DNA of 64,000 nucleotides from Candidatus Thiothrix anitrata (GTDB lineage Bacteria; Pseudomonadota; Gammaproteobacteria; Thiotrichales; Thiotrichaceae), in the NCBI RefSeq assembly GCF_017901155.1, contig NZ_CP072800.1, positions 1,081,283 through 1,145,282 of the forward strand, given 5' to 3'. The stretch's first letter is position 1. Every line of letters begins with the position of its first letter. Shown here one piece after another: positions 1 to 11,251 of this stretch. The translations under genes were made by a program, and so were the position numbers. The notes below the pieces were generated by a model. It searched no databases. It saw only the letters and a program-made list of their open reading frames with translations, and was not told where the DNA came from.

Positions 1-1764
1 AAAAGCCGCCTCGCAGCGTTAATGTCTGAATTAACCAAAAGCGTGGTGGTGTGCAATTTAGACGGACGCATTTTGCTGTACAACAACCGCGCCCGAATGC
101 AATTCCGCGCCTTATCCAAAGTTCCCGGTGTCGCGGGTGGTGCGGAACTGGTGGGTTTAGGACGTTCGATTTACAGTGTCTTTGACCGCAAATTAGTGAC
201 ACACGCGCTGGAAAATATTCAACATCGCCTGCAACGCGGTGCTGCCAGCCCTTCCGCACAATTTGTTACCACCACCCAGGCGGGGCAATTGCTGCGGGTG
301 CAAATGGCTCCGGTACGCGCGGTGCAATCGCCAGATGGTGCTGCGGATATTGCCGTGAGTAACGACCTTACTGGCTTCGTGCTGATGCTCGACAATATTA
401 CCCGCGAATTTGAGGCCGACTCAGAAAAAGACCGGGTGCTGTACAGCCTGACCGAAGGTAGCCGCGCCGCACTGGCGAACGCGCAAGCCGCCGTCGAAGT
501 GCTGGAATATCCCGATATTGAAGCCGAGATGCGTGAGCGTTTACTACACGTGATTCGTGAAGAAATTCAGGGGCTGGGAAAACGCATTGATGAAATGCAA
601 ACCTCTTCCACCAACAATTTGCGCTCGCGCTGGCCGCTCGAAGACATGCTTGGCGCGGATTTCATTGAGGCTGCCGTGCGCCGTATCGAAACCAGTTTAC
701 CAGTACGTGCCGAGTGGGATGCGGTGGATACTTCGTTGTGGTTAAAGGTGGAAAGCTTCTCGCTGTTGCAGGCATTGGTACACCTGAGTAGCCGCTTAAA
801 TATCGAGTGCGGGGTTGATACGGTGCAATTGCGCCTCGCCGAAAACGCGCAGCGTGCTCAACTGGATTTGCTGTGGACACCACAAACACCCGACATCAAA
901 GCCATGATGAACTGGGAGTTAGAGCAAATCCGTTCCGGCTCAGAAACCCTATCATTGACGGTGCAAGACGTGCTCACGCGCCACGGCGGAGACTCTTGGT
1001 ACGAACGTGATGCTGATGGAGTACGCGCATTTTTCCGCTTTTTGCTACCGCTTGCCGCACCGCAGGAAGAGCTAGCTTCCGCTACGTTTTTGCGCAATGA
1101 AAGCCGCCCGGAATACTACGATTTCGACCTATTCCAAAGCTCCGAACAATCGCGCTCGTTGGAAGACCGCTTATTAACTGAACTGACTTACACCGTGTTT
1201 GACACCGAAACCACCGGGCTTAACCCGGCTGGCGGCGACGAAATCATTCAGGTAGGAGCGGTACGCATTGTTAACGGCAAGCTGTTGCAGCAAGAATTCT
1301 TCGATCAACTGGTTGACCCGAAGCGCACGATTCCTGCCGAAACTATCCCCATCCACGGCATCAAGCCGGAAATGGTCAAAGGCCAACCCACCATCGGGCA
1401 AGTGCTGCCTGCCTTCCACACCTTTGCGCAAGATACTGTGTTGGTGGCACACAATGCCGCTTTCGATATGCGCTGCTTACAGGTCAAGGAAAAAGCCACG
1501 GGAATCGTGTTTGATCATCCGGTGCTGGATACGTTGCTGCTTTCCGCTGTGCTGCACCCCAATCAGGAATCCCACCGCCTGGAGGCGATTGCCGAACGCT
1601 TTAACGTCACCGTCATTGGACGGCATACCGCGCTGGGTGACTCGATTGTAACGGCGGAAGTGTTCCTGAAACTGATTCCATTACTCGCAGAAAAAGGTAT
1701 TCTGACTCTGCGGCAAGCGCGGGAAGAAGCACAGAAAACGTTTTATGCGCGATTGAAGTATTAA
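1..1764 (+). CDS. PAS-domain protein with C-terminal DEDDh 3'-5' exonuclease (5' end outside window)
   Basis: The reading frame is open from base 1, so the gene starts upstream; the ATG at 22 is probably internal. The N-terminal part looks like a PAS sensor (VVVCNLDGRILLYNNRAR), followed by about 250 residues resembling a degenerate kinase-like region. The last 190 residues form an exonuclease of the DNA polymerase III epsilon type. Motif I is FDTETTGL with a following Glu, motif II is AHNAAFD, and motif III is H-x4-D in RHTALGD, so all DEDDh residues appear present. It probably degrades single-stranded nucleic acid or trims DNA ends in response to a signal. In this family the missing N-terminus often carries membrane segments, which cannot be checked here. 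A 10-bp perfect palindrome follows 16 bases after the stop codon. Confidence 0.8.
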   Translation, partial: KSRLAALMSELTKSVVVCNLDGRILLYNNRARMQFRALSKVPGVAGGAELVGLGRSIYSVFDRKLVTHALENIQHRLQRGAASPSAQFVTTTQAGQLLRVQMAPVRAVQSPDGAADIAVSNDLTGFVLMLDNITREFEADSEKDRVLYSLTEGSRAALANAQAAVEVLEYPDIEAEMRERLLHVIREEIQGLGKRIDEMQTSSTNNLRSRWPLEDMLGADFIEAAVRRIETSLPVRAEWDAVDTSLWLKVESFSLLQALVHLSSRLNIECGVDTVQLRLAENAQRAQLDLLWTPQTPDIKAMMNWELEQIRSGSETLSLTVQDVLTRHGGDSWYERDADGVRAFFRFLLPLAAPQEELASATFLRNESRPEYYDFDLFQSSEQSRSLEDRLLTELTYTVFDTETTGLNPAGGDEIIQVGAVRIVNGKLLQQEFFDQLVDPKRTIPAETIPIHGIKPEMVKGQPTIGQVLPAFHTFAQDTVLVAHNAAFDMRCLQVKEKATGIVFDHPVLDTLLLSAVLHPNQESHRLEAIAERFNVTVIGRHTALGDSIVTAEVFLKLIPLLAEKGILTLRQAREEAQKTFYARLKY

Positions 1765-1780
1765 GCAGGAGCGCACCAAT

Positions 1781-1812
1781 GGGCAAGGCTTGTGTATACT
1801 CTAGCCTTGCCC
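1781..1812. promoter_or_regulatory. Perfect 10-bp inverted repeat between exonuclease and AlbA-like genes
   Basis: The arms GGGCAAGGCT (1781-1790) and AGCCTTGCCC (1803-1812) are exact reverse complements separated by 12 bases. No T-run follows, so it is a poor intrinsic terminator. It ends 27 bases before the preferred ATG of the next gene. This suits either an operator for that gene or a hairpin closing the upstream transcript. Confidence 0.5.
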
Positions 1813-1839
1813 GATTGGAAAAGCAGGAAGTTGAAACAC

Positions 1840-2673
1840 ATGAATGCGCTTGAGTTACAAGCAGAAGTCGCGCTAGGAGAAGACAGCGCCCGCCAGTTCA
1901 AGGTGGATGTGCTTGAGAGGTTTCATGCCGATGAGCTACCGACCAAAGCAGGTATCGACAAACTGGATAAACTGCGCTTCAGGGACTTTCTACGCAATGT
2001 CTATGATCTGGATTACCCCGATACCCATGAAACCCTGACCTGTTTACTGCAAAACATGGGGCTTGCTACCGAAGATGGCTACTTAAATTTAGCGGGTGTG
2101 CTTTTGTTTGCGGAACGTCCAGAATGGATTAAGCCGCAATTTGTCGTCAAAGCCATCCGTTACCCCGGCAATGAAATTCACGCGGATACTTATTTAGACA
2201 CTGAAGATTACGACGGTGCGTTACGCAAAATGTACGATGACACGCTAGGCTTCATCATGCGTAATTTACATAAAGTGCAGGCCGGACGCGGGATTAACTC
2301 ACCGGGAACACCAGAAATTCCTTCAGTGGTTTTTGAGGAATTATTGGTAAATGCCCTGATACATCGTGATTACCTGATTGACGCGCCGATTCGGGTATTT
2401 ATTTACGACAATCGCATTGAAATTATCAGTCCCGGTCATTTACCGAATAATCTCACTGTAGCAAAAATTCGTAGCGGTAATGCCAATAGCCGCAACCCCA
2501 TTTTAGTGTCTTATGCCGCGAAAGGGGTGTTGCCTTATCATGGTTTAGGTTCGGGAATCCGGCGGGCGTTGGGCGTTTACCCGGAGATTGATTTTGAGGA
2601 TGACCGGGAAGGATGCTTGTTTAAGGCAACGGTGTGGCGTAAGCCGTTGGAGATGATGAAGACCTTCCCATAG
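1840..2673 (+). CDS. AlbA_2/RecG-like ATP-binding transcriptional regulator, internally deleted
   Basis: The protein is related to bacterial Schlafen-AlbA_2 proteins, often mislabelled RecG helicase. Such proteins have an N-terminal AlbA_2 nucleic-acid-binding domain, a winged-helix middle and a GHKL-like ATPase end. Here the first 20-odd residues (ALGEDSARQFKVD) match the start of AlbA_2. The sequence then jumps to FHADELPTKAGIDKLD, which normally lies about 100 residues later. Most of the AlbA_2 fold is therefore missing. The C-terminal part is intact: ELLVNALIHRDY (N-box like), NRIEIISPGHLP and GLGSGIRRAL. The ATG at 1840 has AGGAAG 9 bases upstream and is preferred over the GTG at 1792, which lies inside the palindrome. 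The jump falls exactly at the left border of the 876-bp duplicated unit. Function is probably compromised; misassembly is an alternative. Confidence 0.7.
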   Translation: MNALELQAEVALGEDSARQFKVDVLERFHADELPTKAGIDKLDKLRFRDFLRNVYDLDYPDTHETLTCLLQNMGLATEDGYLNLAGVLLFAERPEWIKPQFVVKAIRYPGNEIHADTYLDTEDYDGALRKMYDDTLGFIMRNLHKVQAGRGINSPGTPEIPSVVFEELLVNALIHRDYLIDAPIRVFIYDNRIEIISPGHLPNNLTVAKIRSGNANSRNPILVSYAAKGVLPYHGLGSGIRRALGVYPEIDFEDDREGCLFKATVWRKPLEMMKTFP

Positions 2674-2785
2674 AAGGAAGATTTGATTGACATCAAAAAT
2701 CGCATCTTCAATTTCCACTTCAAACTAAAAGCATAAATAATTCCACTTACTTAAGGAACTGAATTCTGAACTATAGTAAGCAGAC
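1910..2785. repeat. 876-bp tandem direct repeat, copy 1
   Basis: This unit matches 2789-3664 without a difference that I could see. It starts at TGCTTGAGAGG inside the AlbA-like gene and ends at AGTAAGCAGAC. Its last 35 bases are a duplicated 3' end, including the stop, of the minus-strand gene at 3630-5003. That shows the original segment spanned the junction of two convergent genes. The copies are separated by three bases (AAA, 2786-2788). Confidence 0.9.
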
Positions 2786-2787
2786 AA

Positions 2788-3552
2788 ATGCTTGAGAGGT
2801 TTCATGCCGATGAGCTACCGACCAAAGCAGGTATCGACAAACTGGATAAACTGCGCTTCAGGGACTTTCTACGCAATGTCTATGATCTGGATTACCCCGA
2901 TACCCATGAAACCCTGACCTGTTTACTGCAAAACATGGGGCTTGCTACCGAAGATGGCTACTTAAATTTAGCGGGTGTGCTTTTGTTTGCGGAACGTCCA
3001 GAATGGATTAAGCCGCAATTTGTCGTCAAAGCCATCCGTTACCCCGGCAATGAAATTCACGCGGATACTTATTTAGACACTGAAGATTACGACGGTGCGT
3101 TACGCAAAATGTACGATGACACGCTAGGCTTCATCATGCGTAATTTACATAAAGTGCAGGCCGGACGCGGGATTAACTCACCGGGAACACCAGAAATTCC
3201 TTCAGTGGTTTTTGAGGAATTATTGGTAAATGCCCTGATACATCGTGATTACCTGATTGACGCGCCGATTCGGGTATTTATTTACGACAATCGCATTGAA
3301 ATTATCAGTCCCGGTCATTTACCGAATAATCTCACTGTAGCAAAAATTCGTAGCGGTAATGCCAATAGCCGCAACCCCATTTTAGTGTCTTATGCCGCGA
3401 AAGGGGTGTTGCCTTATCATGGTTTAGGTTCGGGAATCCGGCGGGCGTTGGGCGTTTACCCGGAGATTGATTTTGAGGATGACCGGGAAGGATGCTTGTT
3501 TAAGGCAACGGTGTGGCGTAAGCCGTTGGAGATGATGAAGACCTTCCCATAG
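2788..3552 (+). pseudogene. Second, N-terminally truncated copy of the AlbA/RecG-like gene
   Basis: This frame is a perfect duplicate of the C-terminal 253 codons of the preceding gene. Its ATG is made by the AAA spacer joined to the repeat border, so the start is a by-product of the duplication. No convincing Shine-Dalgarno sequence precedes it. It contains the GHKL-like region (ELLVNALIHRDY, GLGSGIRRAL) but no AlbA_2 domain. The absence of any visible divergence implies a very recent duplication or an assembly artefact. It is best treated as a non-functional fragment unless expression is shown. Confidence 0.65.
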
Positions 3553-3664
3553 AAGGAAGATTTGATTGACATCAAAAATCGCATCTTCAATTTCCACTTC
3601 AAACTAAAAGCATAAATAATTCCACTTACTTAAGGAACTGAATTCTGAACTATAGTAAGCAGAC
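2789..3664. repeat. 876-bp tandem direct repeat, copy 2
   Basis: This is the partner of 1910-2785 at an offset of 879 bases. Its right end continues into the intact minus-strand gene (3630-5003), so the last 35 bases of this copy are the genuine 3' end of that gene. Confidence 0.9.
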
Positions 3665-5003
3665 TATCAAACATAGGTTGCAATTTTTCCACTGCCCACC
3701 CTACATTGGTTACTCCATCCTTGACTATTTTTAAGGATTCAAAAGTCTTTTTCGATGACGCTAAAATACTTCTTAATCTGATTTTTCCATTGCTATCCAA
3801 GCCCTGTGTTTCAAGTTTTTCTAGTAACGTCTTTATTTCTGAAAGTTCCGCCAGAGCTTGCTCTTTAATTTTATTCTCTGAACTCATAGCTCTAATAGCC
3901 ACTTGTAGATTACGCCAATCTTCAGAATCTGTAATGTGACTAGTTTTTGTGGTAAAGTTAGATTGATTTATGGTGTTTTCTCCACCAAAATTAGCGTTAG
4001 TAAAAACTGAATTATTAAGGTTAAAGTTATTAATAACCGTTTCATCTTTATTTGACATTACAGAGTCCTTACTTGAAAGATAGTCTATTAATTGTGATTT
4101 TGTCATGCCATTAACAGCACTAATTGCATTTAATTTATCATGTGCTGATAGTAACACTTGTGCTACAGAGTCGATGGTACTCATGTCCATTGATCTTTGT
4201 AATTGACTAATTATTTTTTCATCTAATACATTACTTTGCTTATACTCAGTAACTTTTTGATGGAATATTGTTTTTGAAGAAGCATCACGATAAACAAATA
4301 TACGATTATCATATGCAGAAGCCTGCTCAAAAAAAAGTTCCACCGGATAATCTTCTTTTATCAAAAAAATAGCGAGATGAGCTTTGCTTTCAGTATCATC
4401 TGATGCCTTAATAATAGGAGTCAAAGGAAATAACTGCTCAAATTCCTTTTGAAGAGAATTCATTCTATCGTCAAAAGTCCAACCAATAAAAGCGCATGAT
4501 TCTTTAAATAAGTACTGCTCTACAGTTGTAGCAATAGCATTCCAATTTTTACTGACAATCGTTATTGTTTTTCTGTTATGATCGTATGTTATCCCTATAG
4601 AATCACCTTTTTTATAAAAATCCTTGAAAAATATAACTAGATTTTCTAACGCCATCTCTGCATTAGCCCGCTGCTCTAATATTCGATAATAAAATGACTT
4701 CGTAAAGCAATCATCTTTCACTACCGAAATAATAATATCATAATCTGCACTATTTCCTTTCTTAAAAACTTGGTTATGCGCGTCATCACACCCATCAGTA
4801 ATAAAAAAAGATAGTGTAATATCTTTCTCTTTATCTTGGAAAACCAGGCTAAAAGGTGATTGATCTTGATGGTAGGGTAGTTTTTCTAGGCGCGAAAAAG
4901 CCATGCTCTCAAGTACATTTATCAACTTTGAAACAGTGTAATCTTCGCTAGACGATGAGCCAACGAAAAGTACAGTCATATTACGAGATGGATTTACACT
5001 CAT
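3630..5003 (-). CDS. Unrecognised protein with Asn-rich linker and helical C-terminus, partner of the GAF kinase
   Basis: I do not recognise a family for this 457-residue protein. The N-terminal 310 residues look alpha/beta and begin with a short beta strand plus Gly/Ser turn (MTVLFVGSSSSED), without an obvious catalytic motif. Residues about 321-352 form an Asn/Gly-rich segment (INNFNLNNSVFTNANFGGEN). This resembles linkers found before small helical adaptor domains in bacterial conflict and signalling proteins. Residues 362-457 are predicted helical. The gene starts 8 bases after the kinase stop and is the last gene of a three-gene operon. It is markedly AT-rich compared with the rest of the window, suggesting transfer. 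An effector or adaptor role is inference only. Its last codons are duplicated inside the tandem repeat downstream. Confidence 0.6.
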   Translation of the reverse strand: MSVNPSRNMTVLFVGSSSSEDYTVSKLINVLESMAFSRLEKLPYHQDQSPFSLVFQDKEKDITLSFFITDGCDDAHNQVFKKGNSADYDIIISVVKDDCFTKSFYYRILEQRANAEMALENLVIFFKDFYKKGDSIGITYDHNRKTITIVSKNWNAIATTVEQYLFKESCAFIGWTFDDRMNSLQKEFEQLFPLTPIIKASDDTESKAHLAIFLIKEDYPVELFFEQASAYDNRIFVYRDASSKTIFHQKVTEYKQSNVLDEKIISQLQRSMDMSTIDSVAQVLLSAHDKLNAISAVNGMTKSQLIDYLSSKDSVMSNKDETVINNFNLNNSVFTNANFGGENTINQSNFTTKTSHITDSEDWRNLQVAIRAMSSENKIKEQALAELSEIKTLLEKLETQGLDSNGKIRLRSILASSKKTFESLKIVKDGVTNVGWAVEKLQPMFDSLLTIVQNSVP

Positions 5004-5011
5004 TTAATAAA

Positions 5012-8000
5012 TCACTTCACAAAAAAACCATCTAGTACCTTGTACAAATGGCCTTTATTAAGCGCATCACCGTTATCTTCTATTTTTTTGAACACATGAT
5101 CAATGTCATGCGTTGTATTCTGCAAAAAATGTTCATAACCAGTAACAATAAAAACTTTAGCATGAGAGCATTTATTGCGCACCTTATCAATCACTGATAA
5201 TCCAGAAGTATCGGAACCGACTACTTTATTTAAAGATACATCCAAAAATACAGCTCCTATATTTTTATTTTCACTAATTAATATATTCATTTCATCTATA
5301 GATGATGCAAGCTTGACCTCAAACCCATACTCTACAAGCCAACGCCTTAAAATATTTGTCCAAGAATTTTCATCATCTAATACAAGAACAACACCCTTAC
5401 CAGAATCAGGCTCTTCACATTTAATTGGAAAGTACAACCCAATTTTCTTTATATTTGATATAGTATCAATTTCTGGATTATAGCTTCCTCCCATTGACTC
5501 CAATATATGCTTTGTGCGCCACAAACCATAATGCCCCTTATTTAAACTAGGCTCATTAATATCACTTAATGCATTTTCAGGAACAGAACAGCCATTATCA
5601 ACCACCTCAATAACAATAAAATTATCGCTTCTGTATGCGTTGATCCGTATGAATAGATTCTCCCTCTCCTTTACTGACAACAATGACTTCGCAGCATTAT
5701 CCGCCAAGGAATAAATAGCATTAAATATAAGTCTGTACTTGCCTCGTAAAATATTAGGTGTATTTTTATTAATCTCAATTTTAACTTGATGATTAAGTTT
5801 ATATACAATTTTTATTTGAGCAGCGATATGTTTAATAAGTTCAGCCACATCAATATCTTTATCGTCTGCTGAAACCATCTCCCTTATTTCACTGTAGAGA
5901 TCATTGACAACACTAATGGAATCTTTTAAACCATCTATTGTGTAGGTAAGAAGTTGAATATTTCCCGTTTTTTGAGTTACTGATATATCATCAATAGTTT
6001 GTTCTGCATTTATTTTCAGAATACTGATACTATTAACTAAGCGATGAGTCAAATCCAGCGACAAAAATGCCATTGTATTTGCGTTTTCTAGCTCAATGAT
6101 TTTTTTATTAGAATTTTTTAAGCTCCTATTTAATGAAATTAATTCTATATTTTTCTTTTTATTTTCCTGATAAAGCCCATTAACCTCCACCATTCTAAAC
6201 AAAGTCGAAATAGCACCCGCCACAATCTCCAAAAATCCCAAATCCTTCGATGAGTAAACATACTCCAAATCAGGATGATAAACCGCAATAACCCCTCGCA
6301 CACCTTTATCATTAAAAATTGGCACGCCTACCCACGATGCTAATGGGTTTCCTGCAAACTCCTGTCGATTGAGTTTGGGGTCATACCATGCTTTTGAGTC
6401 TACCAATGTTTTAATGAGAATCGGCTCACCAGTCAGGATAATTGCCTCTGTTCGCCCTTGTTTCTCTGGATTGATCGGGCGATTTTGAATACCTTCCCAA
6501 GGCATCCCATCTTTATAAATAACAGGAAAAGAAATTTCATTCTTTTCTTGATCGTATAGTGCGAAATAAAGATTAGCCGAAAACATGATTTCAGCTATTG
6601 CTTCTTTTGCTAACTCGAGACTTTTCTCAATGATTAAGTCATTAGGCCATAGCTTGCTAACTTTCTTAACATACTCGTTCAGCTTTTTCTGACGCGCATC
6701 ATCATCCAATTCTTTTTTTCGTTTGGCCAGCGCATCGGAAACTTCATCCATAATTCTAGTGGCAATTATACTTTGATCTTGGGCGGGAATAACAAAGCAT
6801 CCAACCACTCGAAAATCGCCATTCTCATCTTTTGTGCGCATGGGTACGACAACATATTTGTCATTACTGTTCTCAGGATATTCAACATACTGCTTTTTTC
6901 GTTCATCATCTTTTGGTGATATGCGGTATTCTTGAGCTACTTTAATGACTAGATTACGAAATACTGTATCAGGCTTTATAAAAATACCATTTTGAAATTT
7001 AACACCCCAGTCTTGAGTGGCGGTATTGACTGCATAAATTAATAATGACTTTACACCATAAGCCGTTTGCAAATAGTCAAAAGCCTCTGTATATAACGCA
7101 TTCTCATCTTTTATATCAGATAGTTTAACTATTACTTTTTCTTTTTGCCTTCTGCTGAAAAAAGACAGTGATGCACCTGTGGTTTTACAAGCGTCATTCA
7201 ATAAATGCTGATCAACTTGATCATACGCATACCTTGCCATTTTATTGTGCAAGATAAAATGACCCAAAACTGTCCCTTCTGCATGGTAAATCGTCGCACC
7301 TAACCATGACATCACATCGCTATCAATATGGGAAAATGCAGGCAATGGAAGGGCGGCAAAAGCTCTCTCATAGCGAAAGTTAGTGGCAGCCATTGTTTGC
7401 AGGTTCTCTTCCCCGCCCACAATGTTATAGAGTTCCTCTTTCGCCAAGGTGTCCATCAGCCTAAAATCCTGAATCAGAGCATCTTGTCCTGCATTACTTG
7501 CCAGATAATAATTATCGGTGTCTAACTGGTTTTTGACGAGGCAATAAACATTGCTGGACGGATACCGTTGCCGAAGTGAATGGTATGTTTGTTCAAGAAT
7601 CTGACATTCTCGTGTTATTTGCCATGCACCGTGCATGAGCGAGGCTTCCAAGTGCGAACTCTCTTCCTCATGCATCTGCCGCTGAACCGTCTTCAGTAAT
7701 AAAGCTACCCGATCACTGAGGACATCGAGGATACGACTAGCTTCTGGGCTATAAGCTGAGGGTTGCGTTTTATTGAGAATAACAAACGCCCCTAGTCGCC
7801 TATAGTCATCCAGCTTCATGGGGACAATCACAACACTTTGGTAACCCGCAAAACCCGCTTGATGACACGCTTCAATGCCATTGAGCGTGGGATAGTGAAC
7901 AAGCGCGTTATTATCCAACACTTCGAGGATAAGTGGATTATCCGCTGCTAAACCGACAGCATTGGCATCGGTAACAACACGTCCCTCATGCACTACCCAC

Positions 8001-8215
8001 GTACACTGCGACTGACCATAATCACGGTAAACCACCGAAAGCTCTTGTGGGGTGACACACGGCAATCGCTGCTGTTCGACAAGTGATTGAAACAGGGCAG
8101 AAACCGTATCAATCTGTTTCAGGCTAACCCTGTTTTGCAGGTCATTAACGGTTTGGACAAGATTTTCCCAATGGGCATCAGTTGAATGTGTCATGTTAAT
8201 TTCACTTGCAGTCAT
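5012..8215 (-). CDS. Multi-GAF hybrid sensor histidine kinase with C-terminal receiver
   Basis: This is a 1067-residue soluble signalling protein with no clear membrane segment. About four GAF-like modules fill residues 50-690; the last is the clearest (WVGVPIFNDKGVRGVIAVYHP). A coiled coil follows and leads to a dimerisation helix with the probable phospho-acceptor His near 724 (DLTHRLVNSI). The GHKL ATPase has an N-box near 840 (YSLADNAAKSL), VVDNG near 873 and GHYGLWRTKHILESMGG. A receiver domain covers 940-1067 with phospho-acceptor Asp near 992 (AVFLDVSL). The first ATG overlaps the upstream aaRS-like gene by 14 bases; an alternative ATG at 8194 lies seven codons later. The overlap suggests translational coupling. 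The 3' third is more AT-rich than the 5' part. It probably senses a cytosolic ligand and passes a signal to the neighbouring proteins. Confidence 0.85.
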   Translation of the reverse strand: MTASEINMTHSTDAHWENLVQTVNDLQNRVSLKQIDTVSALFQSLVEQQRLPCVTPQELSVVYRDYGQSQCTWVVHEGRVVTDANAVGLAADNPLILEVLDNNALVHYPTLNGIEACHQAGFAGYQSVVIVPMKLDDYRRLGAFVILNKTQPSAYSPEASRILDVLSDRVALLLKTVQRQMHEEESSHLEASLMHGAWQITRECQILEQTYHSLRQRYPSSNVYCLVKNQLDTDNYYLASNAGQDALIQDFRLMDTLAKEELYNIVGGEENLQTMAATNFRYERAFAALPLPAFSHIDSDVMSWLGATIYHAEGTVLGHFILHNKMARYAYDQVDQHLLNDACKTTGASLSFFSRRQKEKVIVKLSDIKDENALYTEAFDYLQTAYGVKSLLIYAVNTATQDWGVKFQNGIFIKPDTVFRNLVIKVAQEYRISPKDDERKKQYVEYPENSNDKYVVVPMRTKDENGDFRVVGCFVIPAQDQSIIATRIMDEVSDALAKRKKELDDDARQKKLNEYVKKVSKLWPNDLIIEKSLELAKEAIAEIMFSANLYFALYDQEKNEISFPVIYKDGMPWEGIQNRPINPEKQGRTEAIILTGEPILIKTLVDSKAWYDPKLNRQEFAGNPLASWVGVPIFNDKGVRGVIAVYHPDLEYVYSSKDLGFLEIVAGAISTLFRMVEVNGLYQENKKKNIELISLNRSLKNSNKKIIELENANTMAFLSLDLTHRLVNSISILKINAEQTIDDISVTQKTGNIQLLTYTIDGLKDSISVVNDLYSEIREMVSADDKDIDVAELIKHIAAQIKIVYKLNHQVKIEINKNTPNILRGKYRLIFNAIYSLADNAAKSLLSVKERENLFIRINAYRSDNFIVIEVVDNGCSVPENALSDINEPSLNKGHYGLWRTKHILESMGGSYNPEIDTISNIKKIGLYFPIKCEEPDSGKGVVLVLDDENSWTNILRRWLVEYGFEVKLASSIDEMNILISENKNIGAVFLDVSLNKVVGSDTSGLSVIDKVRNKCSHAKVFIVTGYEHFLQNTTHDIDHVFKKIEDNGDALNKGHLYKVLDGFFVK

Positions 8216-9494
8216 GGTGGTCTCTGCATGGTTCGGCTGGTAGAATATGCCAGTCTGTTTGGGTTAAAAAATGCTGGGATAACACGACGGGAATACCATA
8301 CATCCGCTGAAATTTTGACAGCGTTTGCGACGGAATTGGTTGTTCGAGTGCTAAAAAGTTACTTAGTTCGTTTTTTCCGCGTTCCAGTGTGCGGCTGAAA
8401 CATTCATATTCTTGGTGTAACCTAATGACTGCATCCTGATTTGAGAGCAATGCTTGCATAACACTGATTACATGAGGTATTTCAACCTCAGATATTAATA
8501 CTTCCGTCATGGTTCTGCGCAACAAATTCCTGATAATCGCCCGTCGCCCACCACGCCCCGGAGCTGGCGCACCGTCTTGAGTGAGCTTCACGAATGCAGA
8601 CAGATGATCACTGATGATACGTATAGAACGTTCAGCATCAGCAGGTTGTTGGTGCTTAAACAACGGTATCAGAGCATTTCGCCACGCTTGAAATCTCAAG
8701 GTATCGTGAACACTCGTCACCTGCTGCAAGATCATCGCTAACCGCTCCAACCCCAACACACATTCCGCAAACACCGTCCCCGCCGGAATCAATTTCCCAT
8801 CGTCATCAATATAGTTCTCGATGAAAAGCGAGTTAGAAATCTCGATGAAACGTCCACACCGACAATTCCCAATCGGCTGCTCCCGATTCTCACAAGCAGG
8901 GCAAGCTACATCCCGCTCATAAAACACTTCCGTATGCGGCCCGCACTTCTTGCCATCACTGGCAATCTGCCCGGTTGAGCGTTGCCGCCAGAAACAATGC
9001 TGTTGATCCAGCCCTACCAATCGCTCTTCCACAACACCCAAGGCTTTCCAGCACTGATAACTCGCCTCATCGCGCCCGAATTCCTCATCATCCAGATACG
9101 TCACCCACAAACGATCTTTATCCAGCCCCAGTGTTTGAGTCAGGAAATACCACAAGCGCGGCAATACCGTTTCGCGTTCAGTCGAACCAATATGGAATGC
9201 CGCCGACATGTGAAACAAGCTCAAGCGTGTCGGGTCTTCACCCACTTGCTTCATATCGAAATGGCGGAAACAAGGTTGGGTAAAAGCAAATTTGCCGCCT
9301 GTGCTTTGCACAATGGTATCCAGATCATTTTCAACCTGAATTAACCCGGCACTCATCACAAATGACATCGGCACAGAATCGTGCAATAACGAAGAAGGAG
9401 GTAAACGGGCAAAACCATCCCGCTCATGCAAAGCGAGAAATGCTTCACTGATGGCGTGGCAATCCATTTCGGCGTGTTGGGGTGTCGAAGTCAT
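8202..9494 (-). CDS. Stand-alone alanyl-tRNA-synthetase-like catalytic domain protein
   Basis: This 430-residue protein matches the class II catalytic core and adjoining helical domain of AlaRS. The motif 2 region is FTQPCFRHFDMKQVG (Arg 77). KKCGPHTEVFYE corresponds to the conserved GPCGPCSEIFYD-like segment of AlaRS, and ECVLGLERLAMIL is motif 3 (Arg 251). ISDHLSAFVKLTQDGAP with GRGGRRAIIRNLLRRT matches the post-catalytic helical domain. A Cys cluster at 198, 201, 211 and 213 may bind zinc. The editing domain and C-Ala domain of real AlaRS (about 870 residues) are absent. It is therefore not the housekeeping enzyme, although it may still activate an amino acid or bind tRNA. It is the first gene of an operon with a GAF kinase and an unknown protein, preceded by a cluster of 10-bp repeats. 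Confidence 0.8.
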   Translation of the reverse strand: MTSTPQHAEMDCHAISEAFLALHERDGFARLPPSSLLHDSVPMSFVMSAGLIQVENDLDTIVQSTGGKFAFTQPCFRHFDMKQVGEDPTRLSLFHMSAAFHIGSTERETVLPRLWYFLTQTLGLDKDRLWVTYLDDEEFGRDEASYQCWKALGVVEERLVGLDQQHCFWRQRSTGQIASDGKKCGPHTEVFYERDVACPACENREQPIGNCRCGRFIEISNSLFIENYIDDDGKLIPAGTVFAECVLGLERLAMILQQVTSVHDTLRFQAWRNALIPLFKHQQPADAERSIRIISDHLSAFVKLTQDGAPAPGRGGRRAIIRNLLRRTMTEVLISEVEIPHVISVMQALLSNQDAVIRLHQEYECFSRTLERGKNELSNFLALEQPIPSQTLSKFQRMYGIPVVLSQHFLTQTDWHILPAEPCRDHHDCK

Positions 9495-9642
9495 GCAGCA
9501 AATATCCCGTTGGGGGTGGCGGAGTGCCGACCTTGAATAAGGTGGCTTAATCCTTCACCGACTTATAGCAAGATTACGGATATTTTTCCACCGCTTAGCT
9601 CAAGATATGCCCTCTTCACCGACTGTCTTTTAGTGGAACAAA

Positions 9643-9724
9643 TGGCGGATAACTTGACTTTTGGCCGATAAATGGCGGATAAGAGCTGTTTTTAGCCAAA
9701 AAATGGCCGATAAATGGCGGATAA
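9643..9724. repeat. Five iteron-like repeats TGGC(C/G)GATAA upstream of the aaRS-like operon
   Basis: The 10-bp word occurs at 9643, 9662, 9673, 9704 and 9715, all in the same orientation. Two pairs are spaced 11 bases apart, about one helical turn, each with a GGCC form followed by a GGCG form. The cluster lies 149 to 230 bases upstream of the aaRS-like start codon and ends 9 bases from the AraC stop. A further direct repeat, CTTCACCGACT, occurs at 9553 and 9614. The arrangement suits cooperative binding of a regulator. No plasmid replication gene is nearby, so an origin is unlikely. Confidence 0.75.
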
Positions 9725-9733
9725 CTCCCTCAC

Positions 9734-10759
9734 TCAGTCCCCACTCCCCTGCGCCAACACCTGATGCACCTTCCGAAACTGTCCCGGTGTCATCCCGGAC
9801 AGTTCGCGAAACGCATCATAGAAATTCGACTGCGAAGAAAAACCGACTTCAAGCCCCACCGATAATACCGGCATCGACGGTTTATCCAGCAGCAAATCTT
9901 CGGCGGCTTCCACCCGATATTCACGGATGTAACGCGAAAAACCTTTGCCAATGCGGGTATTGATCAGCTCTGATAGTTGATGTGGGGAAAGCTTCATGCG
10001 TTCTGCCAATAACGCCAAATCGAGATCAGGGTTTTGGTATACCTGTTCCTGATCCATTAAATTACCCAGTCGGGTTAGCATCTGTTCGCAATCAACTTGG
10101 CTCAAAGTGGAAACGGCGTAAGTTTCACGGGCAGCTTCCACCACTTCGGTGGGTAACTGCGGCATGGTGTATAAAGCCATGCTGATTAGTAAAAATGCAC
10201 CGCCAATCGCGCTGGCGTACAAACTGAAAAAGACCCGCTCAGATAACCAAGGCAAGCCCAACCCCAGCAGCAAAACCAGTAACGCCAACAACAACACGCC
10301 AGCTAACGCCCACAACTCCTGTCGAAACTGACTACGTTGTGCTCGCAAGGCATACACGCTACGCGCCAGCCACAGCAAATAACCCGTCCCCAGCGCGAAA
10401 GCCAGCGGCAAAGCATAAGCAAACGGCAACCAAGGCGCGATTAATAGCGGCACGAAATGCAGTAAATGCCACCAACGCGGGGTGGTTTCGGCGTGTAATA
10501 ACGGGGAGCTAAACAAGTAAAACGTCGGTGCTACCGAAAACAGCAACACCGAATACATTGGGCTATGAATAAACAGAGAGCCATGTTGCAAATACGCGAA
10601 ATGCGCTGCTTGCAGCCCCGCCAACACCGTTAATAGCAGGATACCCATGCTTTGCGATAATAATTGCCCTTTGTAATGGGTACAACGAAAGTGCGTCACC
10701 GCGATAATGAGTGTACTGAATAACGAAAAACCAATGAGCAACAGCGCAAGGGTATCCAT
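9734..10759 (-). CDS. AraC-family transcriptional regulator with N-terminal membrane domain
   Basis: The first 200 residues contain about six or seven hydrophobic helices (for example LWALAGVLLLALLVLLLGLG). The C-terminal 110 residues are an AraC-type double helix-turn-helix. They include LALLAERMKLSPHQLSELIN and the signature SVGLEVGFSSQSNFYDAFRE followed by GMTPGQFRK. Such proteins are thought to couple a membrane-sensed signal to DNA binding. The gene starts 6 bases after the stop of a small lipoprotein gene, so the two are probably cotranscribed. The target genes are unknown; the nearby repeats at 9643-9724 are downstream of this gene and need not be its sites. Confidence 0.88.
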   Translation of the reverse strand: MDTLALLLIGFSLFSTLIIAVTHFRCTHYKGQLLSQSMGILLLTVLAGLQAAHFAYLQHGSLFIHSPMYSVLLFSVAPTFYLFSSPLLHAETTPRWWHLLHFVPLLIAPWLPFAYALPLAFALGTGYLLWLARSVYALRAQRSQFRQELWALAGVLLLALLVLLLGLGLPWLSERVFFSLYASAIGGAFLLISMALYTMPQLPTEVVEAARETYAVSTLSQVDCEQMLTRLGNLMDQEQVYQNPDLDLALLAERMKLSPHQLSELINTRIGKGFSRYIREYRVEAAEDLLLDKPSMPVLSVGLEVGFSSQSNFYDAFRELSGMTPGQFRKVHQVLAQGSGD

Positions 10760-10765
10760 TACGGT

Positions 10766-11050
10766 TTAGCTGTTGTAACGCGGATCATTGGGTGAGCATT
10801 TGGCATTTGCCCGCAGCAGTGCATTAATTTGCTCTTGGGTCAATTTGCCCTTGCTGCGCATGGCTTCGTCGGCAATTTCCTGAATGCTTTTTACCGGGGT
10901 GTTGTTGGCAGTGGTTTGCGGTGCTGGAGCCGGTGCTGCAGCTTTAGCGGGTGTGGCCTTAACCGGTGCAATGGCATTGCAGCCGCTGAATAAAATAGTA
11001 GTCGTCAATAATCCAAAGCTGGCGCACAGCTTGGTGCTGAGTGAGTTCAT
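10766..11050 (-). CDS. Small putative lipoprotein upstream of the AraC regulator
   Basis: The protein has 94 residues from the preferred ATG at 11050, which is preceded by GAGGGCGA. A longer frame from 11095 lacks such a site. The sequence starts with a lipoprotein signal peptide ending in the lipobox LFSGC (Cys 24). An Ala/Pro/Thr-rich linker follows, then a short helical C-terminus (IQEIADEAMRSKGKLTQEQINALL). No enzymatic motif is visible. It is probably anchored in the periplasm and may act with the membrane AraC protein encoded next to it, but this is inference from proximity. Confidence 0.7.
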   Translation of the reverse strand: MNSLSTKLCASFGLLTTTILFSGCNAIAPVKATPAKAAAPAPAPQTTANNTPVKSIQEIADEAMRSKGKLTQEQINALLRANAKCSPNDPRYNS

Positions 11051-11251
11051 TGGGGTCGCCCTCGATAGTGGTTTGTAAACTTTTAAATACCACATTATGG
11101 GCGCTTAGGCACATTAAGTTTACCAATGCGGACACTTATTACCGATGGGCGGAGGTTAAGAAACGTGATTGTTGCATGGTTATACTCGGTTATTACTCAT
11201 TGTTGATGATAAGCTATTTGCATCTGATGCGCACACAGGTAACAACGAACC

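Follow-up and report, generated by a model that had tools for sequence, protein, structure and literature searches.

Gene arrangement of the ARS-HK operon

In a stretch of 64,000 nucleotides from Candidatus Thiothrix anitrata (contig NZ_CP072800.1, positions 1,081,283 to 1,145,282; in the following called the window), we analyzed an operon of three genes, all on the minus strand. They encode a truncated protein resembling alanyl-tRNA synthetase (AlaRS), a hybrid histidine kinase with GAF domains and a third protein, in the following called ARS, HK and P0001. A first-pass annotation, made from the sequence alone, had placed three adjacent genes here, and this was borne out: ARS (9494..8202) and HK (8215..5012) overlap by 14 bases, and 8 bases separate HK from P0001 (5003..3630). 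The operon has the following features.

8202..9494, minus strand: ARS, truncated AlaRS-like protein of 430 amino acids with the catalytic and part of the tRNA-recognition region, too short for the editing and C-Ala domains
8742..9494, minus strand: ARS residues 1-251, constant catalytic head, with R77, W169, N221 and R251 kept and L51, E244 and V246 in place of alanine-pocket residues of E. coli
8856..8903, minus strand: Cys insertion CxxC...CxC of ARS (C198, C201, C211, C213), a possible zinc site
8205..8741, minus strand: ARS residues 252-430, hypervariable C-half
5012..8215, minus strand: HK, soluble GAF-array hybrid histidine kinase of 1067 amino acids (Pfam GAF, HATPase_c, Response_reg)
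6203..6616, minus strand: GAF4, last GAF domain of HK, akin to one from a MoxR-type locus in genome G422
6044..6046, minus strand: H724 of HK, presumed phospho-acceptor, in HRLVNS
5384..5734, minus strand: HATPase_c of HK (Pfam 2.1e-6), boxes N840, D873 and G897 kept
5129..5389, minus strand: receiver of HK (Pfam 2.6e-7), D947 and D992; K1043 lies beyond the Pfam match
3630..5003, minus strand: P0001, ORFan of 457 amino acids, presumed effector replacing the TIR protein of relatives
3633..4043, minus strand: linker of P0001 rich in Asn (10 of the 41 residues 321-361), with the tail (residues 362-457)
9563..9571, minus strand: TTGCTATAA box, probable extended -10 element of the promoter

ARS is related to, but distinct from, housekeeping AlaRS

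Residues 15-415 of ARS matched tRNA-synt_2c in Pfam/NCBIfam (1.4e-42), and a search of the PDB returned an AlaRS (1.7e-26), in agreement with the AlaRS-like enzyme initially predicted. With 139.9 bits against a cut-off of 457, the protein falls below the AlaS threshold for canonical alanyl-tRNA synthetases, and a separate AlaS of 870 amino acids is encoded in the same genome. Between loci, the head is 57-98% identical; the C-half shows 27-59% identity in all 45 pairs of ten sequences, regardless of head identity. The cysteines of the insertion are invariant in the seven sequences of our alignment A1, and a different pattern is found in the ARS of G422.

For the E. coli enzyme, one report lists M43, R69, W170, N212, D235 and G237 as the alanine/lactate pocket (PMC12467997), in a numbering that lies one below the Met-1 count for the residues compared. 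R69, W170 and N212 are retained in ARS as R77, W169 and N221; at the other three positions, all ten ARS sequences have substitutions (M43 to L51, D235 to E244 and G237 to V246). The motif arginines are kept, and the GGK of the motif 2 loop is lost in ten of ten. N303 and D400, described as the residues by which AlaRS reads G3:U70 (PMC10036535), are not retained: the first equivalent is Asn in one of ten sequences, which is cut at a contig end, and the second is Asp in none, with six gaps. According to that source, the mini-AlaRS of Tupanvirus still charges tRNA-Ala without either equivalent, so that this loss alone does not exclude charging by ARS. Overall, the pocket changes argue for a sensor of tRNA or aminoacyl-tRNA, or a transferase, rather than for a maker of aminoacyl-adenylate; ARS would bind a nucleotide or the tRNA end, with amino-acid activation altered or absent.

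ARS and HK are strictly paired in a narrow set of genomes

A seven-sequence ARS profile matched 10 of the 63 genomes of the order (E ≤ 1e-45), 2 of 369 sampled genomes of the class (E ≤ 1e-55; that of the window and G017 from its family; G and L numbers are our handles for genomes and loci) and 1 of 398 sampled genomes of the phylum (E ≤ 1e-45; the window's own). These thresholds were chosen to exclude AlaS, and highly diverged relatives could escape them. HK was found in eight of the 63 genomes (E ≤ 1e-30), all among the ten with ARS. In the two genomes with ARS only (G006 and G019), the gene lies at most 50 bases from a contig end.

Wherever both genes are on one contig (eight genomes and the contig L021), HK comes next after ARS and has the same orientation. 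The expectation that the three families would occur together, as neighbors also elsewhere, thus held for ARS and HK (nine of nine loci; Fisher p about 1e-8 for the order genomes). It failed for the third gene, which is exchanged; as far as searched, P0001 is nowhere else a neighbor of the pair. HK is broken by transposase-like open reading frames (ORFs) in G013 (L027, by eye) and contains stops in G004.

A contig scan by pattern yielded five loci with ARS, under the titles Thiothrix (2), Thiofilum, Gammaproteobacteria and Thermodesulfovibrionales. L021, titled as a Thermodesulfovibrionales metagenome-assembled genome, has a flank 95.8% identical to the window over 1680 bp; we therefore regard it as Thiothrix-like DNA that was wrongly assigned and do not conclude from it that ARS is widespread. 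Matches of ARS to plasmids (68 records) and phages (21 records) were all below 60% identity, and the best 15 listed of each were at 23-29%, the level of AlaS. None was confirmed in viral contigs scanned by two short peptide patterns. HK matched six plasmid records, each with at most 34% coverage at 22-28% identity. A housekeeping role of the PoxA or HisZ kind, named at the outset as a finding that would refute the proposal, is not suggested, since the gene is patchy and, in the window, island-borne.

The kinase is intact in some loci and eroded in others

Pfam detected GAF, HATPase_c and Response_reg in HK, which confirmed the soluble hybrid kinase/receiver proposed earlier. Of the four GAF domains proposed with it, two correspond to Pfam stretches (about residues 94-172 and 534-671); the intervening two resemble GAF domains only on visual inspection. 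The window HK has all boxes of a hybrid histidine kinase (H724, N840, D873, G897, D947 and D992). Five of nine loci (the window, G014, G020, G422 and G004) keep the H, N and G boxes as well as the aspartates of the receiver. The kinase boxes and receiver aspartates are lost in the other four, namely L021, L025 (Thiofilum, G017), L026 (G001) and L027 (G013), and in the three eroded HKs scanned, Pfam detected neither HATPase_c nor a receiver at E ≤ 0.01. Hence, phosphotransfer cannot be the step common to all loci; the HK fold may act as a scaffold.

ARS position 253 is Ala in the five loci with intact kinases and Glu in the four with eroded ones (p 0.008, uncorrected for the choice of site; 0.024 if G006 counts as an exception), a match that we treat as a lead only. 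A G006 contig other than that of ARS holds, at L072:8009-9729, the last part of an HK-like gene, its receiver intact, and after it, where the contig ends, a gene for a TIR third protein.

The third gene encodes predicted TIR proteins in most relatives

In six of the eight readable ARS-HK loci, the third gene belongs to a TIR family (broken in G004, diverged in G014). TIR proteins are known from cell suicide and from immunity to phages. The window and G020 have another third protein that is not assigned to TIR, and no third gene was found in G013 (L027). The third proteins of L021, L025, L026 and L040 (G422) are mutually homologous (blastp, 1e-9 to 1e-23), and a profile of these four matched the G004 fragment (6e-20) and a fusion protein of G422 (2e-15). 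An eight-sequence profile of third proteins matched the G014 protein (5.8e-9).

To assign the fold, eight TIR blocks were used (L040, L021, L025, L026, G004, G006 contig C92, G031 and the G422 fusion), of which six come from contigs that carry HK, with or without ARS, and two from elsewhere. Their profile matched 24 distinct PDB sequences at E ≤ 1, four of them below 0.001 and the best being Cat1 (6.5e-5); by name or known identity, we take 23 of the 24 to be TIR proteins and one (RepX) not. Singly, five of the eight blocks matched Pfam TIR_2 at E ≤ 0.1 (best 9e-8). One Ser and one Glu are invariant across the eight blocks. They fall in the place of the TIR active-site helix, where the Glu serves as an active-site residue. 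AlphaFold2 models of the L021 third protein with two relatives (predicted local distance difference test, pLDDT, 40.6) and of P0001 alone (pLDDT 40.9) were unusable, so the assignment is based on profiles. By profile and conserved Glu, the third proteins of the relatives classify as TIR proteins. The diverged third gene of G014 is followed, at L022:15679-17378, by a 181-amino-acid membrane-type ORF and a 385-amino-acid DUF4062-like protein (by eye).

P0001 had no Pfam/NCBIfam match above the curated cut-offs and no family match above chance. It matched one of the 63 order genomes, its own, and nothing in the plasmid collection; its residues 318-457 likewise matched only the window's own genome among the 369 class genomes. 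With the third protein of G020, it shares a weak colinear alignment (20% over 315, blastp E 0.002), and the linker-plus-helix tail is a separate ORF of 137 amino acids in G020. Four comparisons gave TIR-family matches, at residues 138-219, 180-219, 155-220 and 60-207, none of them significant. In an hmmsearch with TIR against 3 real sequences and 900 shuffled ones, P0001 came third, one shuffled copy scoring higher, and the G020 protein ranked 704th. P0001 is possibly a decayed TIR protein.

The operon lies on an island, and what follows the ARS head is turned over

Around the operon, three further features were delineated.

1834..9716, no strand: inserted island of 7883 bp carrying the operon, with an empty site in the close relative G010
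9640..9724, plus strand: four AAATGGCSGATAA copies at the right border of the island
1910..3664, plus strand: exact tandem duplication (876-bp units 1910-2785 and 2789-3664, 100% identity) of a HATPase_c_4 ATP-binding gene in the island

In G010 (L101), the sequences corresponding to window positions 1-1833 (96.3%) and 9717-11157 (89.1%) lie 7 bp apart, which marks the empty site; neither ARS nor HK was matched in this genome at the thresholds used. No target duplication was seen, and Pfam found no integrase among the five larger ORFs of the island. The second 876-bp copy takes in the end of P0001, and both proteins of the duplication match PADLOC models related to pAgo (~1e-11).

L021 and the window share 95.8% DNA identity over the 1680 bp comprising the right flank (AraC side) and the ARS head, after which no DNA match was found at the sensitivity used. 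The identity declines gradually from about codon 120 to 260; at the protein level, the ARS heads are 98% and the remainder 15-35% identical. L021 is a short metagenome contig and possibly chimeric, and the claim of turnover leans mainly on the window, G001 and G014. Over the 21 pairs of seven loci with unbroken genes (G004, G013, G006 and G019, broken or cut, were omitted), protein identity is 57-98% for the ARS head, 28-52% for the ARS C-half, 18-34% for HK GAF1-3, 33-53% for GAF4, 12-39% for the kinase part and 12-24% for the third protein. Between the window and G001, the respective values are 89, 33, 32, 47, 16 and 14%. As a control, AlaS of the window is 99% identical to that of G001 and 93% to that of G014, compared with 14% and 16% for the third proteins. 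The GC content of the third gene (26-33%) is lower than that of the ARS head (39-52%) in seven of seven loci. On these comparisons, what lies behind the constant ARS head is the product of cassette replacement or of extreme divergence. Correlations of block identities over the seven loci were not significant except for HK GAF1-3 with GAF4 (p 0.03); coevolution by distance is therefore not claimed.

Upstream elements

The first-pass annotation had also noted a repeat cluster shared by the three genes. The four AAATGGCSGATAA copies exist, and the window holds 14 matches at up to two mismatches, against 4.8 ± 2.4 expected. By eye, among ten upstream stretches, the cluster is present only in the window and in L021, at the same site. 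We rejected it as a shared operator; lying at the island border and only at these two loci, it does not count among the operon's conserved elements. A TTG[CT]TATAA box lies 60-73 bases upstream of the ARS start in eight of ten loci and is absent in G020 and G422. Over window positions 3000-10500, Rfam gave no match at E ≤ 1, and no consensus fold was found among eight aligned leaders; a riboswitch or T-box in the leader is not supported.

A PDC-M50A homolog and shared modules link the relatives to conflict-type loci

In six of the eight ARS-HK genomes, a protein of ~145 amino acids with hydrophobic segments (by eye) is encoded within 2.3 kb of the operon. It is a homolog of PDC-M50A and occurs in G001, G017, G422, G004 (in two pieces), G013 and G014 (decayed); none was found near the operon in G000, the window's genome, or in G020. 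The G001 copy (L026) matched the PADLOC model PDC-M50A (8.2e-28) and is the sole copy from an ARS locus that was scanned, the others being assigned by homology. The TIR protein of L040 matched no PADLOC model at E ≤ 0.01. Across the 369 class genomes, the PDC-M50A family gave 12 matches in 11 genomes, one of which is the Thiofilum ARS locus. Of the 11 others, seven have a TIR or ThsB_TIR neighbor (Pfam E ≤ 0.01; the one of L080 below the curated cut-off), and the flanks of the remaining four contain no TIR-like ORF by eye. In L076, L078, L079, L081 and L083, from other Gammaproteobacteria, a PDC-M50A-type protein stands beside ThsB_TIR genes.

Two loci apart from the ARS loci reuse the same modules. 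A second locus in G422 (L055:3501-9417) encodes a TIR_2 protein, a bpMoxR-type AAA protein (2.7e-8), an unknown protein and a protein of 903 amino acids, in which a GAF4 of the HK type (5e-38) is fused to a TIR tail of the third-gene type (2e-9). Its GAF domain is 43.5% identical to GAF4 of the window HK and 33-51% to those of the other kinases. In G013, a PDC-M50A homolog, a TIR_2 protein, an AAA protein (AAA_5, 1.3e-10; bpMoxR under its cut-off) and a further large ORF follow in a row (L073:4633-9999), apart from the ARS locus. The fusion and the row indicate that building blocks of the ARS loci also serve in other loci of the conflict type. The conflict setting suspected from the start thus reappeared, in the relatives as TIR third proteins and the PDC-M50A neighbor and in the window as an island with an empty site.

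Interpretation

We give even odds to the ARS-HK operon being a mobile, hypervariable conflict system in which ARS senses, HK relays and the third protein acts as effector, most likely against phages and in an abortive manner; its classification as a conflict system is drawn from association. From the sequences we infer the signal, phage as the trigger, the contact between ARS and HK, the role of P0001 and the action of the effector. The AlaRS-type head would bind ATP and/or the (aminoacyl-)acceptor end of tRNA or a small nucleotide and thereby report a disturbed tRNA or translation state during infection. ARS would then act on the adjacent GAF-array HK, with which it is strictly paired, by contact or via a product bound by a GAF domain. 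With an intact kinase, as in the window, HK would pass the signal on by phosphotransfer; in the four eroded loci, it would do so by conformation. The output would be the third protein, in most relatives a TIR protein with PDC-M50A nearby, which would presumably halt growth by consuming NAD+ or producing a nucleotide signal. The ORFan P0001 would take its place in the window. Repeated swapping of the cassette behind the constant ARS head would be as expected in an arms race.

Several observations weigh against this interpretation. The tRNA-discriminating residues N303 and D400 are not retained in ARS. The window has neither PDC-M50A nor a detectable TIR domain (hhalign of P0001: E 0.04-0.06, probability about 1%), the effector and phenotype of its own system are presumed, and PDC-M50 itself is only a candidate system. 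PADLOC has no model for ARS or P0001 at E ≤ 1 and gives HK only a weak match in the receiver region (0.0088). The erosion of four of nine kinases argues against phosphorylation as the common step, the block-by-block identities of ARS and HK are uncorrelated, and G006 is a possible exception to the match of ARS and HK types, if its two contigs belong together. Moreover, ARS is confined to one family among the sampled genomes at strict thresholds, which is narrow for a defence system.

More tentatively, with the balance somewhat against it, the operon may represent a new immune class. Here, the infection sensor would be an alanyl-tRNA synthetase put to a new use, its catalytic head constant and its C-half exchanged, that reads the tRNA pool or makes an aminoacyl signal. 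A GAF-array kinase, catalytic in some loci and a pseudokinase in others, would release effectors that can replace one another, either TIR together with a small membrane partner or P0001. If so, bacteria would have a synthetase-based route to notice hijacked translation, and the operon would lend itself to studying how one unchanging sensor head drives relays and effectors that are exchanged. Kinases eroded in some loci and intact in others would provide a natural test of the need for phosphorylation.

Among the alternatives, the operon could be a unit for translation-status or stress signaling with no immune role, in which ARS senses charged or uncharged tRNA, the kinase adjusts physiology and the third protein is an ordinary output. 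That ARS-HK is the constant part, that kinase and receiver are intact in five of nine loci including the window, and that neither a TIR domain nor PDC-M50A was detected in the window would all suit such a unit. Patchy presence, an island with an empty site, extreme turnover and TIR/PDC-M50A partners are, however, atypical of physiological regulators, and we regard it as unlikely.

Less probable again is an aminoacyl-tRNA-dependent transferase similar to AcmF of ascamycin biosynthesis, which would pass the aminoacyl group from tRNA to a small molecule, to HK or to the third protein, the kinase regulating this chemistry or self-protection. ARS and AcmF, which we compared by description, have the truncation and an active-site Asp-to-Glu change in common (D232E in AcmF, according to PMC12945691; E244 in ten of ten ARS). 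On the other hand, ARS retains the Asn (N221) where N219Q is reported there for AcmF, no cluster of the nucleoside-antibiotic type was recognized beside ARS by eye, and the TIR partners point elsewhere.

The hosts of the operon are filamentous bacteria, which would suit a locus for kin or self/non-self recognition whose cassettes are allotypes and in which a mismatch triggers the effector, as would the 98% identical heads and divergent remainders of the window and L021 with their common AraC-side flank, but turnover in an arms race accounts for this pattern as well, the L021 contig is short and of metagenomic origin, and no secreted, surface or contact-delivery gene was recognized in the operon, which makes this reading highly improbable.

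Comparison with known systems

TIR conflict systems and truncated AlaRS enzymes have both been described; we know of no case in which they are combined with a GAF kinase. Among the papers listed in our literature searches, we recognized none that describes the ARS-HK operon or a conflict system with a synthetase core, and the PADLOC models contained no such system either. For PDC-M50, no describing paper was found among those listed, and "PDC" does not occur in PMC9252829.

Like ARS, AcmF is an AlaRS cut to its aminoacylation and tRNA-recognition parts with an active-site Asp-to-Glu change, and N219Q and D232E are reported to disrupt aminoacyl-AMP formation (PMC12945691). Unlike AcmF, ARS keeps N221 and the motif arginines and has the Cys-rich insertion in most members. 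AcmF belongs to a nucleoside antibiotic cluster in the same account, whereas ARS is paired with a GAF kinase and, in relatives, with TIR proteins. The mini-AlaRS of Tupanvirus resembles ARS in lacking the editing and C-Ala domains and both G3:U70-reading residues. It differs in that it charges tRNA-Ala and keeps motifs 1-3, whereas ARS lacks the motif 2 GGK and three of six pocket residues (for the Tupanvirus enzyme, PMC10036535).

The vWA-MoxR ternary systems (PMC7159879) recall the MoxR-type locus of G422 with its GAF4 and TIR modules and the AAA locus of G013 with its PDC-M50A homolog and TIR_2 protein. In contrast to them, the ARS-HK operon of the window has neither an AAA ATPase nor a vWA protein, and none of the five larger island ORFs scanned encodes a MoxR ATPase or a vWA protein. 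To PDC-M50 and the ThsB-type TIR of Thoeris, the relatives' loci are linked by a PDC-M50A homolog near a TIR-family protein. Their TIR, however, belongs to another family, has an extra N-terminal part and follows ARS-HK, and the window has neither component.

A further parallel lies in eukaryotes, where the Ser/Thr kinase GCN2 carries a HisRS-like domain in one chain with the kinase and senses the charging state of tRNA. ARS-HK likewise couples a synthetase-like domain to a kinase, a likeness of logic for which no homology is claimed. On the more tentative reading of a new immune class, the operon would be a bacterial counterpart of the GCN2 logic, wired to cell suicide.

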